NCBI GenBank assembly: GCA_947644545.1
Contig: CANRZW010000015.1
Span: 19,242-83,241, forward strand
Direction: 5' to 3'
Length of the DNA stretch: 64,000 bases
Source of the DNA: an uncultured Lachnospiraceae bacterium
GTDB lineage: Bacteria > Bacillota > Clostridia > Lachnospirales > Lachnospiraceae
Part shown: positions 42,559 through 53,253 of the stretch, one piece after another
Layout: every line of letters starts with the position of its first letter
Numbering within the stretch: position 1 is the stretch's first letter
Made by a program: the position numbers and the translations under genes
The notes under the pieces: generated by a model
Databases searched by the model: none
What the model saw: only the letters and a program-made list of their open reading frames with translations
Told to the model about the DNA's origin: nothing

Positions 42559-43023
42559 ATGAAGGAGGAAGTGTTTGAGCAGCGGATCCGGGAATACACA
42601 CCGAATATGTACAGGCTTGCCTACGGTATTTTACAAAACCATGAGGACGCACAGGATGCCGTGGGCGAGACAGTACTGAGAGCCTTTGAAAAAATACATA
42701 CGTTGCGCCGTCCCGAATGCTTCCGGGCGTGGCTGATGCAGATTACGGCAAATGAGGCGAAAAAAATCTATGTCGGAAACAAGCGGAGGATTCCGCAGGA
42801 GAATATGGAAGAGCTCATGCCGGCCTTCCGGGACGATTATCACGAGCTTTGGGATGTGGTGATGGGATTGGAAATGGTTTACCGGGAGGCGATTCTGCTC
42901 TATTTCTATGAGAGTCTTTCCATCCGGGAGATCGCAAAGGCGCTTCATGTTCCGGAAGGTACGGTAAAATCCCGGCTTTCCAGAGGAAAGAGTCTGCTGC
43001 GTGAGAAGCTGTCGGATATATGA
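42559..43023 (+). CDS. ECF-type RNA polymerase sigma factor
   Basis: The 154-residue protein contains sigma region 2 (about 8-75: YTPNMYRLAYGILQNHEDAQ and CFRAWLMQITANEAKKIYV) and region 4 (about 95-150: YREAILLYFYESLSIREIAK and VPEGTVKSRLSRGKSLLREK), with no region 3. AAGGGGGAG precedes the ATG. The next gene, 42 bp downstream, encodes a membrane protein that probably acts as its anti-sigma or sensor. This is a different sigma factor from the one at 15.9 kb. Confidence 0.88.
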   Translation: MKEEVFEQRIREYTPNMYRLAYGILQNHEDAQDAVGETVLRAFEKIHTLRRPECFRAWLMQITANEAKKIYVGNKRRIPQENMEELMPAFRDDYHELWDVVMGLEMVYREAILLYFYESLSIREIAKALHVPEGTVKSRLSRGKSLLREKLSDI

Positions 43024-43065
43024 TGTATGTAGAAGGTTTTTGATGCAAAAGGAGGTTCGGACCAT

Positions 43066-44655
43066 ATGAAAAATAAAGCAGATCAGTTGGAGCGGGATTT
43101 ATTCCGCATGGCAGAGCGGGAGCAAATGATACTGCCGGAGACAGTAGATAAAGTGGTTGATGATAAGCTTTCCCAAATACACAGGTCAAAGTCCAGGGGC
43201 AGAATGACGTGGAAAAGGGCGGTGATTCTGGCGGCGGCGCTTGTGGCTATGTGTTCCCTGACCGTGACGGCAGCGGTGGGAGCCCTGCAGCGGCGTATGG
43301 AAGCCATGAACGAACGGGAGATGGAGGACTATTTTGTACAGATTTATACCAGCAGGCTGGGAGCGGATAATTACAGCCGTCCGCTGACAGACACGGAGCA
43401 GGAGCGCATGGGCAGTCTGCGCACCTCCTATGAGGAGGAAGCGGTATTTCCCGAAAAGATCCTGACCATGATTTCCTCCCCGGACGAATATAAGGGAAAA
43501 GGCGTGGCCTTTTACAAGGATACGTCCACCTTTTTTCTTCCGGAAGAGACCATGAGCGACGAGGAGCTTCTCGAGGTGATTGATTTCGTGTATAAGCGGG
43601 ATTACAGTCTGCAGGCCATGAATCAGAAGATTGAGGAGGGAGAAATTCCCTTCCCGGAACAGCAGATTGCGAAGGAGGAAGCGGCAGGGGAGGAAGAGAC
43701 GGCGAAGGGTAAGGATACGCTCCAAAATCCAGGGCAGGAGCTGACGATTCCCTATACGGGAGATCTGGAATTTCAGTATATTGCGTCGGGGCAGGACTGT
43801 ATTTTCCTGGCAGGAGAGAGCAGTATCCACAGGATGGAGATCGGAAGCAGTGACTCCGAGCCGTTCTTTGACGACTTTGAAACGGAAACCTATGTAAACG
43901 CAATGTACGAGGATAAAAAGGGAAATCTTTATCTGGGCCTGTATGCGCGCATGGATGACGGTGATGACAACGCTTACAGCGGGATAACGGTAGGGGGAGT
44001 GCGCTACAAGACATGGCTCTGGATTCTGAATGCGGACAGGGAGATACTCCGGAAGGTGGACATTTCCTTCCTGCTGGAACAGGAATATGGAGTGCAGTGC
44101 CGTATGATAACGAGAATTGTTGTGGATGAGCAGGGCTATGTCTATGTCCGGGCGGCATTTTTGGGGGATGTGCTTCTCCTTATCCTGGATGAACAGGGGA
44201 ATTATATCAGGAGCGTTACCTCCAAGGAATTTAATTGCCATGACCTGGGCGGGCTCGGAATCGGAAAGGACGGCAGGGTCTATACCCAGATACAGACGAA
44301 GGACCGCATGGGGATCGCCTCCGTTGATCCGGAAAAAGGCGCTCTGGATGAAATCTATATGGACATCGTGCCGGCGGGAACGATCATGCTGGATATCGTT
44401 GCAGCGGGGGCTGACACGGATTTTGTGTTCTGGGGATATGACGGTATCTTCACCTATAATCTGGGAGAAGACAAGGCAGTCAATGTATTGCCCGCCTATG
44501 AGGCACCCTGTAACTGGGAAGGCGTGATGCATTGCGCCCTTCCCGACGGCAGAATCGTGTTTGCGGACTGTTCGCAGTACCGCAATGAAGGGGGCAAAAT
44601 GAAAAGAGTTCCGGAGAACATCACTTTTTACTACAAATCCACTTTAACCGATTAG
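43066..44655 (+). CDS. Membrane-anchored sensor-like protein paired with sigma factor
   Basis: The family is not firmly recognised. The 529-residue protein has a cytosolic N-terminus (about 1-50), a single transmembrane helix (about 53-73, RAVILAAALVAMCSLTVTAA) and an extracytoplasmic part. Residues 75-230 are helical and acidic; residues 235-529 contain repeated strand-turn units such as DGRVYTQIQTKDRMGIASVD and WGYDGIFTYNL, suggesting a beta-propeller. The layout (short cytosolic domain, one helix, outer propeller) suits an anti-sigma factor that senses an outside signal. The N-terminus lacks the zinc-binding motif of classical anti-sigma proteins. GGAGG precedes the ATG. Confidence 0.7.
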   Translation: MKNKADQLERDLFRMAEREQMILPETVDKVVDDKLSQIHRSKSRGRMTWKRAVILAAALVAMCSLTVTAAVGALQRRMEAMNEREMEDYFVQIYTSRLGADNYSRPLTDTEQERMGSLRTSYEEEAVFPEKILTMISSPDEYKGKGVAFYKDTSTFFLPEETMSDEELLEVIDFVYKRDYSLQAMNQKIEEGEIPFPEQQIAKEEAAGEEETAKGKDTLQNPGQELTIPYTGDLEFQYIASGQDCIFLAGESSIHRMEIGSSDSEPFFDDFETETYVNAMYEDKKGNLYLGLYARMDDGDDNAYSGITVGGVRYKTWLWILNADREILRKVDISFLLEQEYGVQCRMITRIVVDEQGYVYVRAAFLGDVLLLILDEQGNYIRSVTSKEFNCHDLGGLGIGKDGRVYTQIQTKDRMGIASVDPEKGALDEIYMDIVPAGTIMLDIVAAGADTDFVFWGYDGIFTYNLGEDKAVNVLPAYEAPCNWEGVMHCALPDGRIVFADCSQYRNEGGKMKRVPENITFYYKSTLTD

Positions 44656-44928: not shown

Positions 44929-44957
44929 TTGACAAATTGGAGGTCAGAAAATAAAAT
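44929..44957 (+). promoter_or_regulatory. Promoter of the dehydrogenase/GPH operon
   Basis: TTGACA (44929-44934), 17-base spacer, TAAAAT (44952-44957), about 140 bp before the dehydrogenase ATG. Confidence 0.65.
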
Positions 44958-45098
44958 TAGATACATAATAAAACTATTTAATAAAGTAATAAATAAAGTA
45001 GAAATCGAAAAAGGGGGCAGAGAAAAAATTCAGGAAGAGATGGATTGATACAGCGGAATAGCAATAGATAAATGCAAAGAAAAATGGAGGAGACAGTC

Positions 45099-46148
45099 AT
45101 GGAAGGAAAAATGAAAGTAGCGGTAATGCTGGGGATTGGCAAGATGGGATTTGAGGAAAGGGATATCCCGAAAGCAAAAGACAATGAGGTGCTTGTCAAG
45201 TTGGAATATGTGGGAATCTGCGGCAGTGACCTGCATTATTACGAGACGGGGGCGATTGGTGACTATGTGGTAAAGCCGCCCTTTGTACTTGGCCATGAAC
45301 CGGGTGGAACGGTTGTGGAAGTAGGAAAGGATGTGAAGCATCTGAAAGTCGGTGACAGGGTTGCACTGGAACCGGGTAAGACATGCGGCCACTGTGAATT
45401 CTGTAAAACAGGGAATTACAATCTGTGCCCGGACGTGGTGTTTTTCGCAACGCCGCCGGTGGACGGGGTATTTCAGGAATATGTGGCTCACGAAGCGGAT
45501 CTTTGCTTTAAGCTGCCGGATCATGTAAGCACCATGGAGGGTGCATTGATTGAGCCTCTGGCAGTGGGTTTCCATGCAGCAATGCAGGGCGGCGCAAGAG
45601 CAGGACAGACAGCGGTTGTCATGGGGGCAGGCTGTATCGGTCTGGTGACAATGATGGCATTAAAGGCAATGGGCGTGTCAAAGGTATACGTGGTGGATAT
45701 CATGGAAAAACGGCTCCGGAAAGCGTTGGAGCTGGGGGCAGACGGGGTAATTGACGCCAGCCGTACAGATGCAGTGGAAGAAGTGAAGAAACTGACGGAG
45801 GGCAGAGGATGCGACCTGGCAATAGAAACGGCAGGCACACAGGTGACAACGGTACAGACGATACATATGACGAAGAAGGGTGCAACAATCGTGCTGGTGG
45901 GATACAGCAAGAGTGGGGAAATGACGCTGCCTGTGAGCCTTGCGCTGGATAAGGAACTGACCTTCAAGACGGTGTTCCGTTACCGCCATATCTATCCCAT
46001 GGCGATTGAGGCTGTTGCGGCAGGGAAGGTAAACCTGAAAGGCATTGTGACGGATGTCTTCGGGCTTGATGAGGCACAGAAAGCCATGGACTATAGCGTG
46101 AACAATAAAGCGGATATTGTGAAAGCAGTGATACGCATTGCGGAGTAG
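45099..46148 (+). CDS. Zinc-dependent polyol dehydrogenase (sorbitol/xylitol dehydrogenase-like)
   Basis: The roughly 349-residue medium-chain dehydrogenase oxidises a sugar alcohol with NAD(P). The catalytic zinc site starts at Cys41 in [11 protein letters not shown], with [12 protein letters not shown] supplying His/Glu. Four structural-zinc cysteines lie in [15 protein letters not shown], and the cofactor fold shows [31 protein letters not shown] is typical of sorbitol/xylitol dehydrogenases. The GPH symporter downstream probably brings in the substrate or its glycoside. I start at 45099, eight bases after GGAGG; the ORF-track start lies before that site. Confidence 0.87.
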
Positions 46149-46244: not shown

Positions 46245-47621
46245 ATGGAGCAGAAGAATACAGATATAAAAGTGCCATTGATCAGTAAGATTGCCTATGG
46301 CATGGGGGATGTAGGATGTAATTTCAGCTGGATGTTTGTAGGAAATTTCCTGATGATATTTTATACGGATGTTTTCGGGATAGGGATGAGTGCAGTTGCA
46401 GGATTGATGCTGTTCTCGAGGTTCTGGGATGCGATTAATGATCCCGTAATCGGCGGTTTGAGCGACAAGACGCATACGAGGTGGGGAAGATACCGTCCCT
46501 GGCTGTTAATCGCCGCACCGTTGACCGCTCTTGTATTGATACTGACTTTCTGGGCGCATCCGGATTGGTCATCTACAGTAAAGATTGTGTACATGGCAGT
46601 TACCTACTGCATTCTGGTATTGGGTTACACCTGTGTCAACATCCCTTACGGAACTTTGTGTGGTGCCATGACACAGAATATTGAAGAGCGGGCGAAGATT
46701 AACACATTCCGTTCCGTCAGTGCGATGATTGCCATCGGTATTATCAACATCATAACGGTTCCCCTGATCGCAGCGCTTGGAAAGGGAAATGACAAGAGGG
46801 GATATCTCCTGATTGCGGTCATATACGGGTGTATTTTTGCAGCATGTCACATCTTCTGTTTTGCGAAGACCAAAGAGGTTGTGGAGGTGCCGGAAAAGGA
46901 AAAAACGCCTTTGAAAGTACAGTTGTCCGCTGTTGTGAAAAACAGGCCGTACTTAATTGCAGTGGCCGGGCAGTTCCTGTTCGGGGTGACGCTTTATGGA
47001 AGAAATGCGGATGCGCTCTACTACTTTACCTATGTGGAAGGGAATCAGGCATTATTCAGTACTTACTCTCTTTTTATTATCATCCCGTCTATCATCGGCG
47101 CGGCCTGCTTCCCGCTGGTGTTCCGTCTGACAAACAATAAAGGGCGGTCAGCTTCCATATTTGCGCTGCTTACAGGGCTTAGTATGTTTTGTATGTACTT
47201 TTTTACGGTTGGAAAATCACCCGTTCCGTTTTATCTGTTTTCCTGTCTGGCACAGTTTTTCTTTTCCGGGTTTAACACAGCGATTTATGCAATCGTACCG
47301 GACTGTGTGGAGTATGGGGAATGGAAGACGGGGCTGCGTAATGATGGTTTCCAGTATGCGTTCATTTCTTTAGGAAATAAGATTGGAATGGCGATCGGCA
47401 CTTCTGTACTGGCAGGTGTTCTGGGCAGCTTCGGATATGTAGCGAATGAACAGCAGAATCCGGCAGTGCTGGCTGTGATCAAACATTCTTTTACCACGGT
47501 TCCCGGCGTGCTGTGGATCGTAACTGCGGCAGTTTTATTTTTCTACCGCCTGAATAAGAAAGCTTATAACAAGATCGTGCTGGAGATTCAGGAAAGAAAG
47601 GAGAGTGGCAGGAATGTGTGA
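46245..47621 (+). CDS. GPH-family sugar:cation symporter
   Basis: The roughly 458-residue protein has twelve helices and the glycoside-pentoside-hexuronide symporter hallmarks: KIAYGMGDVGCNFSW at the start, FSRFWDAINDPVIGGLSDKT with the conserved Asp residues, and TRWGRYRPWLL. Relatives (MelB, XynB-type) move melibiose, xylosides or hexuronides with H+ or Na+. The substrate here is not determinable. AAGGAGGA lies six bases before the ATG at 46245, so the ORF-track start is too long. Its 3' end overlaps the HPr-like gene by 8 bases, so the two are probably translationally coupled. Confidence 0.87.
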   Translation: MEQKNTDIKVPLISKIAYGMGDVGCNFSWMFVGNFLMIFYTDVFGIGMSAVAGLMLFSRFWDAINDPVIGGLSDKTHTRWGRYRPWLLIAAPLTALVLILTFWAHPDWSSTVKIVYMAVTYCILVLGYTCVNIPYGTLCGAMTQNIEERAKINTFRSVSAMIAIGIINIITVPLIAALGKGNDKRGYLLIAVIYGCIFAACHIFCFAKTKEVVEVPEKEKTPLKVQLSAVVKNRPYLIAVAGQFLFGVTLYGRNADALYYFTYVEGNQALFSTYSLFIIIPSIIGAACFPLVFRLTNNKGRSASIFALLTGLSMFCMYFFTVGKSPVPFYLFSCLAQFFFSGFNTAIYAIVPDCVEYGEWKTGLRNDGFQYAFISLGNKIGMAIGTSVLAGVLGSFGYVANEQQNPAVLAVIKHSFTTVPGVLWIVTAAVLFFYRLNKKAYNKIVLEIQERKESGRNV

Positions 47622-47880
47622 TGTAGCTGCATTGGGAGAATTAGAACCTACAAGATCCTTTGAAATCCTGCTTGGTTCTGTAGATAAGGTAAAAGCATTT
47701 GTCAATGATATGAGCAGAATAGAGGGTGATGCATTCCTCTGTGTGGGAAAGTATGTGATTGATGCAAAATCGATCATGGGAATTTTCAGTTTAGAGCTGT
47801 CAAAGCCATTGCGGCTTGAGATCGAGAACTGGAAAGAGGAATATATGGCAACTCTGGAAAAGTATTTGAATCATGAATAG
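47614..47880 (+). CDS. HPr/Crh-like small protein lacking the catalytic histidine
   Basis: The roughly 88-residue protein aligns by eye to the PTS phosphocarrier HPr: GSVDKVKAFVNDMSRIEGDA corresponds to the first helix, and VIDAKSIMGIFSLEL to the regulatory-serine segment (KSIMGxxSL around Ser46). The residues where HPr has the phosphorylatable His15 (LHARPA) read PTRSFEILL, with no histidine. This resembles Crh, which is phosphorylated only on Ser46 and serves in carbon catabolite control. The C-terminal RLEIENWKEEYMATLEKYL is longer and more charged than usual. It overlaps the GPH symporter gene. AAAGGAGAG precedes the ATG. Confidence 0.7.
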   Translation: MCDVAALGELEPTRSFEILLGSVDKVKAFVNDMSRIEGDAFLCVGKYVIDAKSIMGIFSLELSKPLRLEIENWKEEYMATLEKYLNHE

Positions 47881-47893
47881 CCTGTCGGAAGAT

Positions 47894-47940
47894 ACAGGTA
47901 TGGCAGCAGTCAGGCAGCTGTCATACCTGTTTTCTTTTCA
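47894..47940 (+). terminator. Terminator of the dehydrogenase/GPH/HPr-like operon
   Basis: ACAGGTATGGCAGC pairs with the complementary GCTGTCATACCTGT (one mismatch), followed by TTTCTTTTC. Confidence 0.85.
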
Positions 47941-48231: not shown

Positions 48232-48915
48232 ATGGATATTTTAAAGGCGGTACATCTTAAGAAGTATTACGGAAGCGGGGAGAATCTGGTAAAGGCGGTG
48301 GACGATGTCAGTTTCGGCATTGAGAAGGGCAGCTTCACGGCGATCGTGGGGACGTCTGGCAGCGGCAAGACAACGCTGCTGAATCTGATCGGGGGACTGG
48401 ACTTTGTGGATGCGGGGGAGGTCATCATAGACGGACACTCAATCATGGAGATGTCGAAGGAAGAGCTGACGGTGTTTCGGCGTCGGAATATCGGTTTTGT
48501 CTTCCAGAATTACAATCTGATATCGGTACAGAATGTGTATAAAAATATCGTGCTTCCCATCCGGCTGGACGGCAGGAAACCGGATCGGGATTATATCGCG
48601 CAGATCTGTGGACAGCTGGGGATCGAAGGGAAAATGGACCGGTATCCCAATCAGCTTTCCGGCGGACAGCAGCAGAGGGTGTCCATCGCCAGAGCCATTG
48701 CGGCCAAGCCGGCGGTGCTGCTGGCGGATGAACCGACCGGCAACCTGGATACCAGAACGAGCACGGAGGTGATGGGATTGTTGAAGATGACTTCCAGGGA
48801 ATTCAACCAGACGATCATTATGATCACGCACGATGATGCTATCGCACAGCTGGCGGATCGGGTGATCCATATCGAGGACGGTAAGCTGGTGAGAGAGCAG
48901 GAGGTGCAGGCATGA
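48232..48915 (+). CDS. ABC transporter ATP-binding protein (MacB/BceA-like)
   Basis: The 227-residue ATPase is of the LolD/MacB/BceA class: Walker A VGTSGSGKTTLL (about 39-50), Q-loop FVFQNYNLISV, signature QLSGGQQQRVSIAR, Walker B LLADEPTGNLD, H-loop MITHD. It overlaps the FtsX-domain permease gene by 4 bases (ATGA) and forms a transporter with it. A two-component system follows 50 bp after the permease, as in antimicrobial-peptide sensing/detoxification modules. AAGGAG lies about 11 bases before the ATG. Confidence 0.9.
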   Translation: MDILKAVHLKKYYGSGENLVKAVDDVSFGIEKGSFTAIVGTSGSGKTTLLNLIGGLDFVDAGEVIIDGHSIMEMSKEELTVFRRRNIGFVFQNYNLISVQNVYKNIVLPIRLDGRKPDRDYIAQICGQLGIEGKMDRYPNQLSGGQQQRVSIARAIAAKPAVLLADEPTGNLDTRTSTEVMGLLKMTSREFNQTIIMITHDDAIAQLADRVIHIEDGKLVREQEVQA

Positions 48916-51479
48916 GCATGATGTTCAGGAATTCCGACCAGAAGCTGGAAAAAGAGCTGGCTGCTGACGACTACAGAGCGCATCCGGTGCGCAACAGGCT
49001 GGCGGTGCTGGCAGTGGCGCTGACGGCGCTGCTCATCGTTGTTATTTTTACGGTGGGGATCGGTTATATGACGGCCATGACACGTTATATGGGGGCATCC
49101 CCGGGGCCGGGTACGGACAGCGCCATGATCTATGGTGACGAGGAGATTCTGGAGCGGGCAAAAAAGTTGCCGCAGGTGGACTGGGCGGCTTACGCCAAGC
49201 GGTGCAGTGCAAGCTATCTGCACAATCAGGAATTTTCCGGTGTGGATGTGCGGTTGTTTGCGGCGGACGAAGTGCATTATGAGAAAAATATGGTGGATCT
49301 GATCGCCGGCAGGTATCCGGAGAGCGGGGATGAGATTCTGCTGTCCGATACCATGTCGGAGCGTCTGGGGCTGGCGAAACAGTTAAACGTCACCTATGAC
49401 CTCGTAGTGCTGGTGGAGGGAGAAGGCGAAGGGCAGCAGACGGAAAAAGTGATTCCCATGACGGTGTGCGGGTATTATAAGAATCCGCTGCGCGGCGTCG
49501 CGGATATCTATGAGGAGATCTACACGGGAAAAGCCTTTATCGAGAAGCACAATCCGGGACTGATCAAGGGGTATGACCAGATCTATGTGAAGCTGAACAA
49601 TTTGAATCCCTTGAAGCTGGGGACGGACAAGCATGAGAAGCTGACAGAAGTGAATGAGCAGGCGGCAGGCAACGGCATTCAGTACAAGGCCAGTGATCTG
49701 TCCTATGCGGCCCTGGCCCCGATCATACTGCTTCTGCTGTGTGTGATGTTCTGTGGATACTTTTTTATCTATAATATATTTGACATCTCGATCGAGAATG
49801 ATATACGGTTCTACGGGGAATTAAAGACCATCGGCATGACAAGGCAGCAGCTTAAGCGGATGCTGTTGTGGCAGATGAACAGGGTTTCCTTAATAGGCAT
49901 TGTGCTGGGAGGCATGATCGGATACGGCATCGGACGGATGGCAGCGGGTGCGGTTATGGACGCTTTTGCGGAAGGCATTTCCTCTTTCTATAAGCCGGCT
50001 GGTTTCGTACAGGTGTTTGCGCTGGGAGCGGTGTTTTCCTGGATTACGGTGCTTGTCAGTACCATGAAGCCTTTTCGGATCGCCAGCACGATCTCCCCTG
50101 TGGAGGCGGCCAGATACCGCGGCAGGAAGAAAAAGGGCGTTTTCTCGGTTATCTCTTTTGCCTTAAGCGGTGTTCTGTTTCTGGTGGTGTATACAATCTC
50201 TATGGGGTATTCGGTGGAGGTGCATACGGCGGAGCACAACGGCACGGATTTCCGAATAGTGCAGAAAACGGTCAAATTCGGGTCGGAGGAGCCTTATCAG
50301 CCTGTCAGTGACGAGCTGGTGCGAAAGATCAGGGAGCAGGAGTTTGTGGAAGATTTCCGGGTTACCTATGTGGCCAGGACGAAGCCGGACTGGTTGATTT
50401 TCGGGGGCGGTTATTATTATGATGTATCGCGGGGAGAGATTGCAGGAGAAGGGGAGCTGGCCCGTGACAGACAGGCGTATGTGGACAGCATGGAACAGAA
50501 ATGGGGCGTGGATCCCTGGCGCAGCCTTCCCGGAAAGAACGAGAGAGACAATTATCCGGTCAGCGTCGCGGGTATGGATGCGGCGTATCTTGACCATGAA
50601 AGTCAATATTTTACCGTGCTGGAAGGGGAGTTTGACGCCGAACGGTTTGCACAGGGCGGTTATCTGATCTACAACCGTTCCCTCTATGTCAATGATATGG
50701 AGCAGAGCGAGGGCATGGCGTATCAGGTACATGCAGGCGACCGGGTGTCGGTCACGTTCTTTGACAGTGCGGCAGATCGTTACGTGGAGCAGGAATTTAC
50801 GGTGATGGCCTTGGTGACGAGCCATAATATCTATGGCACGGATAATATGGGGGAAGTCAATATCTGGCTGACGGATGAGGCATTTCAGGAGATTTATTCG
50901 AATTACGGGGAGCTGATCGGGAACGTCTGCTTTAATGCATCCGGTAAAAGGCAGGACGGGACGGCGCTTTCCGACAAGGAACAGTATGAGATCATTGCCG
51001 GGCTTGTAGAGGAAGACGGGAATCTGCAGCTTTCGCTTGACTCCGCTTATATGACCCGGGTACGGAATACGGAAACGAAGCGGAGCATGACGGCTTTCGG
51101 TATCCTGCTGGCGGTGATCGTGGGATTGATCGGTGTAGCCAATATGGTGAATACGGTAACTACGGATGTGATGGCCAGGAAGGTGGAATATGCGGCCATG
51201 CAGTCCATCGGGATGACGGGGCGGCAGATGAAGCGGGATATTTTCGAGAAGTACGCCGTGCTTGTCGCCACAGCGCTGGGACTGGCGACCGTGGCGGGAG
51301 CGGCGCTGGCCTATAAGGTCGGGGCGCAGCCGGGATTTAATTTTTCGGTCATTGCGTTTGTGCAGGCGCTTATGATCTTTGTGGTGATCTCGGCCGGGCT
51401 GTGCGTGGTGATGGCGCAGGTGCTGACCTGGGGGATGAACAGGAGGTCGATTGTGGAGAGGCTGCGGGAAGTGGTGTAG
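48912..51479 (+). CDS. FtsX-domain ABC transporter permease
   Basis: The 855-residue protein has an N-terminal helix (about 30-55), an outer domain of about 200 residues, and a helix block (about 268-400, FGYFFIYNIFDI-type). A second large outer domain (about 440-740) and a closing three-helix FtsX block (about 740-850, LLAVIVGLIGVANMVNTVTT) complete it. This duplicated arrangement differs from BceB (about 650 residues, one large loop) and suggests a MacB-like or lipoprotein-type mechanotransmitter. With the adjacent ATPase and two-component system it is probably a peptide-antibiotic response transporter; substrate unknown. Confidence 0.83.
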   Translation: MSMMFRNSDQKLEKELAADDYRAHPVRNRLAVLAVALTALLIVVIFTVGIGYMTAMTRYMGASPGPGTDSAMIYGDEEILERAKKLPQVDWAAYAKRCSASYLHNQEFSGVDVRLFAADEVHYEKNMVDLIAGRYPESGDEILLSDTMSERLGLAKQLNVTYDLVVLVEGEGEGQQTEKVIPMTVCGYYKNPLRGVADIYEEIYTGKAFIEKHNPGLIKGYDQIYVKLNNLNPLKLGTDKHEKLTEVNEQAAGNGIQYKASDLSYAALAPIILLLLCVMFCGYFFIYNIFDISIENDIRFYGELKTIGMTRQQLKRMLLWQMNRVSLIGIVLGGMIGYGIGRMAAGAVMDAFAEGISSFYKPAGFVQVFALGAVFSWITVLVSTMKPFRIASTISPVEAARYRGRKKKGVFSVISFALSGVLFLVVYTISMGYSVEVHTAEHNGTDFRIVQKTVKFGSEEPYQPVSDELVRKIREQEFVEDFRVTYVARTKPDWLIFGGGYYYDVSRGEIAGEGELARDRQAYVDSMEQKWGVDPWRSLPGKNERDNYPVSVAGMDAAYLDHESQYFTVLEGEFDAERFAQGGYLIYNRSLYVNDMEQSEGMAYQVHAGDRVSVTFFDSAADRYVEQEFTVMALVTSHNIYGTDNMGEVNIWLTDEAFQEIYSNYGELIGNVCFNASGKRQDGTALSDKEQYEIIAGLVEEDGNLQLSLDSAYMTRVRNTETKRSMTAFGILLAVIVGLIGVANMVNTVTTDVMARKVEYAAMQSIGMTGRQMKRDIFEKYAVLVATALGLATVAGAALAYKVGAQPGFNFSVIAFVQALMIFVVISAGLCVVMAQVLTWGMNRRSIVERLREVV

Positions 51480-51532
51480 AGGTATAAGGGGGCTGCGATA
51501 TGATTGTAATTTGAGAAGGAAAGGGCAAATGA

Positions 51533-52222
51533 GTGGGGATGGAGAAGCGGATTTTGGTTATTGAGGATGATCGGGCGTTGAATGAGGGGATTGCGTTTGC
51601 ACTGCGGCGGGAGGGGTATCTGACGAGGAGCGCCTATAGTCTGCGGGAAGCGAGGGAGAAGCTGGAAGAACAGATGAACCTGATTCTGTTGGATATCAAT
51701 CTGCCGGACGGGGACGGCAGAGAGTTTCTGGGAAGTGTGCTGGCCGGGCAGCCGGCGCCGGTGCTTCTGCTGACAGCCAGAGACACGGAGGAAGATATGC
51801 TGCAGGGGTTCCGGGCAGGGTGTGATGATTATATCACGAAGCCTTTTTCCATGCCGGTGCTGCTTATGAAGATCGCGGCGGTATTAAAGCGCAGTGAGGG
51901 CGTGTCGCGGCAGATCTATGTGAATGGTGAACTGTTGTATGATTTTGAGAACAAGACATTGACCAGGCGGGGAGAGCAGGTAGAGCTTACGGCGTTAGAG
52001 TGCAGGCTGACGGAGCTTTTTCTTCGCAACAGGGGTATCGTGCTGACGAGAGAACGGATCCTGGAACGGATCTGGGATGCGGATGAGCGGTTTGTGGAGA
52101 GCAGGACGCTCAATGTGACGATCCGCAGGCTGCGCATGAAGGTGGAGGAGAATCCGGAGGAGCCGATTTATATCAAAACAGTGTTTGGTTTGGGGTATAA
52201 GTGGGAGGATGGACAGAAATGA
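51533..52222 (+). CDS. OmpR-type response regulator
   Basis: The 229-residue regulator has a receiver domain (about 1-115; acidic pair in LVIEDDRAL, phospho-acceptor in LILLDINLPDGDG, Thr in LLLTARD, Lys in ITKPFSMP) and a winged helix of the OmpR/PhoB type (about 130-228: LTALECRLTELFLRN and VTIRRLRMKVEENP). GGAAAGGG lies seven bases before the GTG at 51533; the ATG two codons later is equally plausible. It overlaps the kinase gene by 4 bases and probably controls the ABC transporter encoded upstream. Confidence 0.88.
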   Translation: MGMEKRILVIEDDRALNEGIAFALRREGYLTRSAYSLREAREKLEEQMNLILLDINLPDGDGREFLGSVLAGQPAPVLLLTARDTEEDMLQGFRAGCDDYITKPFSMPVLLMKIAAVLKRSEGVSRQIYVNGELLYDFENKTLTRRGEQVELTALECRLTELFLRNRGIVLTRERILERIWDADERFVESRTLNVTIRRLRMKVEENPEEPIYIKTVFGLGYKWEDGQK

Positions 52223-53253
52223 ACAAGCGGTATAAGAGTAACGGTACAGACGGTATATGGATAGGCGGTATGGGCGTGATGCTCATACTGCTTTTCCTGT
52301 TCAGCGAGCTTTCCTGCAGACGGCCGGCTTACGGCACATGGCTGATCATCCTGTATGGGGTGGTGAATCTGGCGGTGTTCGCAGGGGTATATCTGTTGAT
52401 CGAGAGGCGGGTGGACGGGAAGCTCTATGCGTTCAGTGAAATGATGGAAGAGCTGATGGACGGCAGAGTTACGATCGCCTTTCCGGTGACGGAGGATACG
52501 ATTCTGTCCAGAATGCAGGGGCAGTTATTGCGGCTCTATGACATTCTGTGCTCTTATGAGGAGCGGGAGCGGCAGTTTCGCGGGCAGCTTAATGAGAATA
52601 TCGGGGATCTGGTGCATCAATTAAATACGCCGATCACGAATATCTTGATGTATGTGGGATTTCTGGAACGGGATGATTTGACGGCGGATGAGAAGGGAAG
52701 ATTTCTTGCCTGTCTGGAGGAGCAGACGAAGAAGCTTACCTGGCTGGGGGAGAGCTTTTCTAAGGTGTCGAGACTGGAGACGGGGATTATTCGCCTGAAA
52801 CCGGAATGGCAGAGTCTGGAAACGATTCTTTTGCAGGCGGTGGGACAGGTGATGGAGAAGGCGAAGAGCCGGGGGATGGAGATTGATTTGTCTGGCAGGG
52901 TAAAAAGTCAGGTGATGGCGGACGCGAAATGGACGGCGGAGGCTGTCTTTAATGTGCTGGATAACGCGGTGAAGTATGGGGATGCGGGCAGCAGGATCGA
53001 GATGGAAGTGATGGAACTGACAAATTATGTAGGGGTGGCAGTGCGGAGCAGTGGGGTTCGGATTGCACCGGAAGAATATCACAAGTTATTTAAACGGTTT
53101 TACAGAGGCAGGGAGGTCGGAGAAAGAGAAGGCGTCGGGCTGGGATTGTATATTACGAGGAAGATTGTGGAGGAAGAAGGGGGTTACATCAAGGTGGGCA
53201 GGACGGCGGATGAGAGAACGGAATTTGTGCTGCTGTTTCCGGCTGGAAAATAG
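52219..53253 (+). CDS. Sensor histidine kinase, short intramembrane-sensing type
   Basis: The roughly 344-residue kinase has two close transmembrane helices (about 14-33 and 41-62) with almost no outer loop, like BceS-type kinases that read the state of a partner ABC transporter. The H-box is GDLVHQLNTPITNILMY; the ATPase domain shows VFNVLDNAVKYGD, KLFKRFYRG and GVGLGLYITRKIV. The start at 52219 overlaps the regulator stop (ATGA) with GGGAGGA upstream; the longer ORF-track start is unlikely. It forms a two-component system with the preceding gene. Confidence 0.87.
   Translation: MNKRYKSNGTDGIWIGGMGVMLILLFLFSELSCRRPAYGTWLIILYGVVNLAVFAGVYLLIERRVDGKLYAFSEMMEELMDGRVTIAFPVTEDTILSRMQGQLLRLYDILCSYEERERQFRGQLNENIGDLVHQLNTPITNILMYVGFLERDDLTADEKGRFLACLEEQTKKLTWLGESFSKVSRLETGIIRLKPEWQSLETILLQAVGQVMEKAKSRGMEIDLSGRVKSQVMADAKWTAEAVFNVLDNAVKYGDAGSRIEMEVMELTNYVGVAVRSSGVRIAPEEYHKLFKRFYRGREVGEREGVGLGLYITRKIVEEEGGYIKVGRTADERTEFVLLFPAGK

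Follow-up and report, generated by a model that had tools for sequence, protein, structure and literature searches.

Discussions of HPr kinase (HprK), a sensor of fructose-1,6-bisphosphate, ATP and phosphate, usually name two substrates, HPr and Crh. Phosphocarrier HPr, the product of ptsH, is recognised by His15 within the motif G-[IL]-H-A-R-P. Crh of Bacillus subtilis shares the HPr fold, has no phosphorylatable His15 and carries the Ser46 segment as NAKSIMG; only His15 is swapped in Crh, the loop with Arg17-Pro18 being kept, and the protein, whose gene lies beside rapZ-yvcK-whiA, acts with CcpA. His15 of HPr itself contributes to the contact with CcpA (PMC3526391). In multiphosphoryl transfer proteins of the FPr/FruB type (EIIA-HPr; fructose EII with a C-terminal HPr, as on C67 of the genome analysed here), HPr is joined to a protein that acts in fructose metabolism, keeps its histidine and passes phosphate to PTS domains. 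HPr fusions of the EI/EIIA type are described in PMC2405797, in passages that mention no fusion to a PfkB kinase. HPr signals also act on sugar symporters: as cited in PMC3526391, lactose/galactose permeases are controlled by HPr(Ser-P) in Lactobacillus brevis and by HPr(His-P) in Streptococcus thermophilus.

We analysed a 64,000-nucleotide stretch of DNA, referred to as the window, from an uncultured Lachnospiraceae bacterium (assembly GCA_947644545.1, contig CANRZW010000015.1, positions 19,242 to 83,241). One of its open reading frames, running from an ATG through its stop codon and encoding MCDVAALGELEPTRSFEILLGSVDKVKAFVNDMSRIEGDAFLCVGKYVIDAKSIMGIFSLELSKPLRLEIENWKEEYMATLEKYLNHE, shares 8 bp with the end of a GPH symporter gene (Table 1). 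A preliminary description had read the product as an HPr-like protein without the catalytic histidine, a Crh analogue coupled to the symporter and serving regulation rather than phosphotransfer. Similarity to HPr is weak yet exceeds chance: Pfam PTS-HPr (PF00381) matched with E = 0.0016 and 18.9 bits, below the curated 23-bit cut-off that relatives of the same kind pass (L111, 23.6 bits; own core A, 25.4 bits), the NCBIfam Crh/HPr model NF010354 matched with E = 9e-6, and the top matches of a PDB sequence search were all Crh. The AlphaFold2 model, built on a 61-sequence alignment, reached pLDDT 87.7 and pTM 0.78 with disorder confined to residues 1–8, and its first 39 Foldseek matches in the PDB were all HPr or Crh (probability 0.98–1.00, TM 0.50–0.69); the open-faced beta-sandwich of the model places the protein in the HPr superfamily. 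The structural part of the preliminary description was thus borne out, as were the absence of a catalytic histidine at site 15, where the loop is three residues shorter, and the conservation of the Ser46 segment, intact as DAKSIMG with the serine at residue 53. Compared with the ptsH product, the fold and the Ser46 region are shared, whereas the phosphocarrier site is gone.

Table 1. Features of the dehydrogenase-symporter unit and of the HPr-like reading frame, in window positions.
Feature	Position	Strand	Basis or remark
Candidate promoter TTGACA-17-TAAAAT, upstream of dehydrogenase gene	44929..44957	+	consensus match only, 11/12
Zinc-dependent polyol (sorbitol/idonate-type) dehydrogenase, first gene of unit	45072..46148	+	ADH_N, ADH_zinc_N
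GPH-family sugar:cation symporter, 458 aa	46245..47621	+	MFS_2 1.7e-93; TIGR00792 377 bits (cut-off 231)
HPr-like ORF, 88 aa	47614..47880	+	very probable deletion derivative of fructokinase-HPr-like fusion
Remnant of fructokinase 5′ end, MCDVAALGEL (intact form MYDVVALGEL)	47614..47643	+	alignment to L010
HPr-like domain proper	47653..47877	+	84% aa identity to fusion domains of G009/G023
Codon of Ser46-equivalent serine (window residue 53), predicted HprK target	47770..47772	+	Ser in 125/125 distinct family members
Hairpin and T-run directly 3′ of HPr-like ORF, likely intrinsic terminator	47893..47940	+	folding vs shuffles

The dehydrogenase, the symporter and the free HPr-like module appear, from gene order and signals, to be co-transcribed, the HPr-like gene being the last in the unit; a dehydrogenase orthologue also lies upstream at L062 and L063. 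The promoter scan of the region returned 9 promoter-like sites against 5.9 expected in shuffles. The terminal hairpin was missed by a simple terminator scan and came from folding against shuffles, in which its stability (-28 kcal/mol, z -7.6) was equalled in 0 of 200 cases. Directly upstream of the unit, at 42559-44655, are a sigma-70-family (ECF-like) factor and then its 529-aa membrane-anchored partner, both named from sequence alone. On the other side, 48232-53253 encodes an ABC ATPase, a large FtsX-like permease, a response regulator and a histidine kinase, a set that looks like a Bce-type module for sensing of and resistance to peptide antibiotics; these names likewise come from the sequence alone.

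Within the genus, the nearest relatives of the window domain (77–85% identity) sit in 422-residue open frames. The fusion protein encoded there, of about 402 aa, consists of an N-terminal PfkB fructokinase and a C-terminal HPr-like domain and follows the same symporter. Once 84,980 species genomes had been scanned, the count of fusion loci rose to 11, in different assemblies, with PfkB always first and the HPr-like domain always last; the carriers' labels are Lachnospiraceae, Clostridia, Eubacterium or Roseburia, many of them bear names of metagenome bins, and the isolate Lachnospiraceae bacterium A2 is among them. The symporter precedes the fusion in 10 of the 11 loci, L108 having no intact symporter upstream, and the L107 locus is broken at its 5′ end. 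PfkB domain scores in the fusions range from 176.8 to 189.3 bits with an invariant GAGD motif, and the linker is the least conserved part. The N-terminal domain resembles PfkB fructokinases of the ScrK/FrcK type in its DTTGAGD motif, and fructokinases were the best Foldseek matches of the fusion model; this AlphaFold2 model is poor (pLDDT 60), so no contact between the domains can be read from it. Unlike the fusion, the genus's other close fructokinases (54–62% identical) all stop where its HPr-like domain starts. It also differs from FPr/FruB: its HPr-like domain lacks the histidine loop and is attached to a PfkB kinase that depends on ATP. No relative was found in a scan of viral contigs with the fusion protein. 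A 631-aa frame containing an HPr-like domain at L122 was rejected as a further fusion, being mostly an antisense frame across adjacent genes.

Aligned to one fusion locus (L010), the window DNA is 89% identical up to 47642 and 88% identical from 47653, and between these positions it misses 945 bp, or about 315 kinase codons. The window protein therefore starts as the fructokinase and then continues with the linker and the HPr-like domain, the first ~10 kinase codons being joined in frame to that domain. These codons are all that is left of PfkB, whereas the upstream symporter, the identity of the C-terminal domain and the position nested among fusion carriers are those of a fusion locus. On this alignment the ORF is very probably a deletion derivative of the fructokinase-HPr-like fusion. 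The junction shows no convincing microhomology, and a genome search found no intact fusion elsewhere in the source genome. Its other fructokinase (57%), in a GH32 operon on contig C16, presumably covers the lost kinase function. Since the ORF derives from the fusion, its overlap with the symporter gene would go back to the beginning of the kinase gene since lost; the overlap within one gene unit is real, as described earlier, and this descent accounts for it. That the organism still has the kinase domain and only the assembly lost it seems highly improbable: the assembly is a draft of 83 contigs, but the junction lies inside a contig of 83 kb, neither breakpoint carries a repeat, the reading frame is kept across it, and the independent assembly of L104 has a similar kinase-less ORF that trees place separately (AU p 9e-7).

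The HPr-like domain belongs to a large, order-level family that is little described in the literature. Of 397 sampled Lachnospiraceae genomes, 384 carry the family; it also occurs in 17 of the order's 24 other families and, among sampled genomes from the rest of the phylum, in 1 of 119. Three residues around His15 are missing from all 125 distinct sequences, none of which has a histidine at the site, and in the window family Asp-Lys stands at positions 17/18 instead of Arg-Pro. Ala44-Lys45-Ser46-Ile47 is invariant in 125/125 sequences while other columns vary, an invariance perhaps slightly overstated because this motif was part of the search model, although most loci came from whole-protein searches. 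Going by these residues, family members would be unable to take phosphate at His15 and retain an invariant Ser46 segment. An invariant HprK site in proteins that have lost the phosphocarrier loop speaks for a signal module whose output depends on phosphorylation of the serine, in keeping with the earlier suggestion of regulation rather than phosphotransfer, and we consider the loop-less domain a probable HprK substrate; without Arg17 and the loop, however, docking of HprK might be weaker.

In the protein tree, the fusion domain falls in a 17-row subfamily clade (SH-aLRT 99) with the motif W-[KR]-[ED]-E-Y, and the window protein shares its shortened His loop, its DAKSI segment and its place in the clade. 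Stand-alone members of this subfamily lie beside ptsI (L113), beside beta-phosphoglucomutase (L116), which is likewise the neighbour at L153, and at L154. The source genome encodes five His-less HPr-like proteins, namely the window protein, one on C1, two on C13 (one after feoB, the other at 15.5 kb) and one on C12. Our literature search, with subscription literature outside its scope, returned nothing on HPr Ser46 in Lachnospiraceae or on a PfkB-HPr fusion.

Several other loop-less genes were observed. First, the C1 gene (L056:7466-7696; G000:C1:271465-271692) lies between mtaB-like and thiI genes and has relatives in nearly all Lachnospiraceae genomes sampled; the literature search found no described function for it. 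Second, one of two paralogues, at L057:13806-14045 and L057:6033-6248, directly follows feoA-feoB (iron transport), an adjacency hinting at roles outside sugar uptake. Third, in a Eubacteriales bin, a loop-less Ser46-type gene (L113:2983-3210) directly follows ptsH-ptsI, and that ptsH also lacks Ser46.

A gene for HprK, on whose presence the preliminary description depended, was found in the source genome (244 bits), and 47 of the 52 genomes examined have HprK. It is encoded in every one of the 27 complete genomes with an HPr-like protein, and the HPr-like protein is likewise missing from the two nearly complete genomes that have no HprK, a co-occurrence that is suggestive only (about p 0.07, Fisher, in a deliberately chosen sample). 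In the source genome, ptsH beside ptsI (G000:C19:301-555; L066, L182) keeps His15 and has Lys at position 46. Among sampled relatives, in a tabulation that also took in loci L183-L211, ptsH has His15 in 25/25 cases and Ser46 in 1/25 (Lys 14, Arg 9, Ala 1); HPr from a ptsH without Ser46 should therefore not be an HprK substrate. Crh of sampled relatives, with L235 left out as a false pattern match, shows the reverse, His15 in 0/25 (Glu 22, Asp 2, Gln 1) and Ser46 in 25/25. At the level of these residues, His15 and Ser46 are thus partitioned, ptsH almost always having the former without the latter, and the pattern of ptsH is also the opposite of that in the window protein.

These results bear on the proposal that the window protein is a Crh analogue, phosphorylated on Ser46 and acting as a cofactor of CcpA. 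The Crh matches in the PDB, the conserved Ser46 segment and the presence of hprK agree with it, but the source genome has a separate, true Crh (C31; GLEARP...NAKSIMG, with Glu15, Arg17 and Ser46), encoded downstream of hprK in an hprK-ROK-murB-rapZ-whiA cluster, and the same pattern recurs in 25/25 sampled relatives. The window protein has the Ser46 site of Crh without its Arg17 loop, which is deleted along with His15 throughout the window family, and without the hprK/rapZ/whiA neighbourhood; moreover, none of the LacI proteins of the source genome exceeds the cut-off of the CcpA model (best 184 of 442 bits). We give this role very little credence, and in this respect the preliminary description does not hold.

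Two further kinase-less forms occur in other species: L104, whose ORF begins MFDVAALGELVEPKTAKSFDI, and L111 (locus G477/L096), in another genus, where a stand-alone HPr-like gene directly follows the same symporter with no kinase and with no kinase remnant at its start. That L111 represents a pre-fusion state appears disfavoured, solely by its nested tree position (95/94). In a DNA tree of symporter plus domain, the window, L104 and L111 lie among fusion carriers at three places, and their union in one clade was rejected (p 6e-51), as was a clade of the window and L104 (AU test, p 9e-7). A single deletion shared by the window and L104, which have V5A in common and a near-identical breakpoint, was rejected by the latter test; because of the one shared substitution and nearly the same breakpoint, transfer of the short allele between them is possible.

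Selection was assessed from private changes per branch in the 70-codon domain. The window branch has 5 nonsynonymous and 7 synonymous changes, a ratio of 0.21 (p = 0.008 vs neutrality), and intact fusions have ratios of 0–0.29; L104 (10:3, ratio 0.95) and L111 (17:6, ratio 0.81) look relaxed. Constraint on the window branch is no proof of present function, because the branch spans time before the deletion. Several species show decay of the dehydrogenase-symporter-fusion locus, with a broken kinase frame in L101, an internal deletion in the symporter of L103 and a truncated dehydrogenase in L096; in L112 an HPr-like fragment without a start is left. A functionless stump of a gene under loss, its frame not yet decayed, is accordingly a serious prospect for the window ORF, falling a little short of an even chance. 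The near-neutral kinase-less forms and the debris at L101 and L112 agree with such an origin, but nonsynonymous changes are depleted on the window branch, and the ORF keeps its start codon, frame and Ser46 segment with a stable terminator directly after it. Whether it is still functional in the source genome we rate at about even.

If functional, the free protein might, by analogy, be phosphorylated on its serine and then bind and inhibit the co-translated GPH symporter, a form of local inducer exclusion. The overlap of the two genes, the arrangement at L111 and the inhibition of lactose/H+ symport by HPr(Ser-P) in L. brevis, as cited in PMC3526391 (its references 38 and 39), are consistent with this. 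However, descent from the kinase gene explains the overlap, L111 evolves as if relaxed, and other family members adjoin unrelated genes (thiI/mtaB, feoB, ptsI, beta-phosphoglucomutase), so that partnership with the symporter is not general; the permeases of L. brevis and S. thermophilus, in turn, are controlled by bona fide HPr, and their genes are not accompanied by one for a dedicated loop-less HPr protein. We regard this mechanism as unlikely.

HprK is activated by fructose-1,6-bisphosphate and reversed by phosphate (PMC12034463). In the mechanism we propose, HprK would phosphorylate the Ser46-equivalent serine, and a local partner would receive this energy signal through the domain. The fusion's own fructokinase would be that partner, subject to feedback or feed-forward by glycolytic state; with the operon leading from polyol to fructose and on to fructose-6-phosphate, the regulated step would act on sorbitol-derived fructose. 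In the window, where the kinase is gone, the free domain would be produced alongside the symporter and could, as a small protein, report the state of HprK in trans, acting on the symporter or on other HprK clients or competing for HprK; alternatively, it may be a recent relic. Most likely, and with moderate confidence, the domain evolved as a switch for fructokinase control, set through phosphorylation by HprK, and the window copy is a freed version of it, perhaps a relic. More tentatively, the jobs of HPr may be split in these bacteria, with His15 in ptsH and Ser46 in Crh and the loop-less family, the fructokinase fusion being under direct HprK control in cis through serine phosphorylation and the domain repeatedly set free as a stand-alone regulator, the window copy among them.

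The family and the fructokinase fusion are worth following more than the window ORF itself, and the fusion offers a simple, purifiable system for asking whether HprK can act in cis on a metabolic enzyme. In a large gut family, almost all genomes have at least one further predicted HprK substrate without phosphocarrier function, five in the source genome. With these additional predicted substrates, and with a phosphocarrier HPr that almost always lacks the serine, expectations for carbon-catabolite signalling in dominant gut Firmicutes would be altered.
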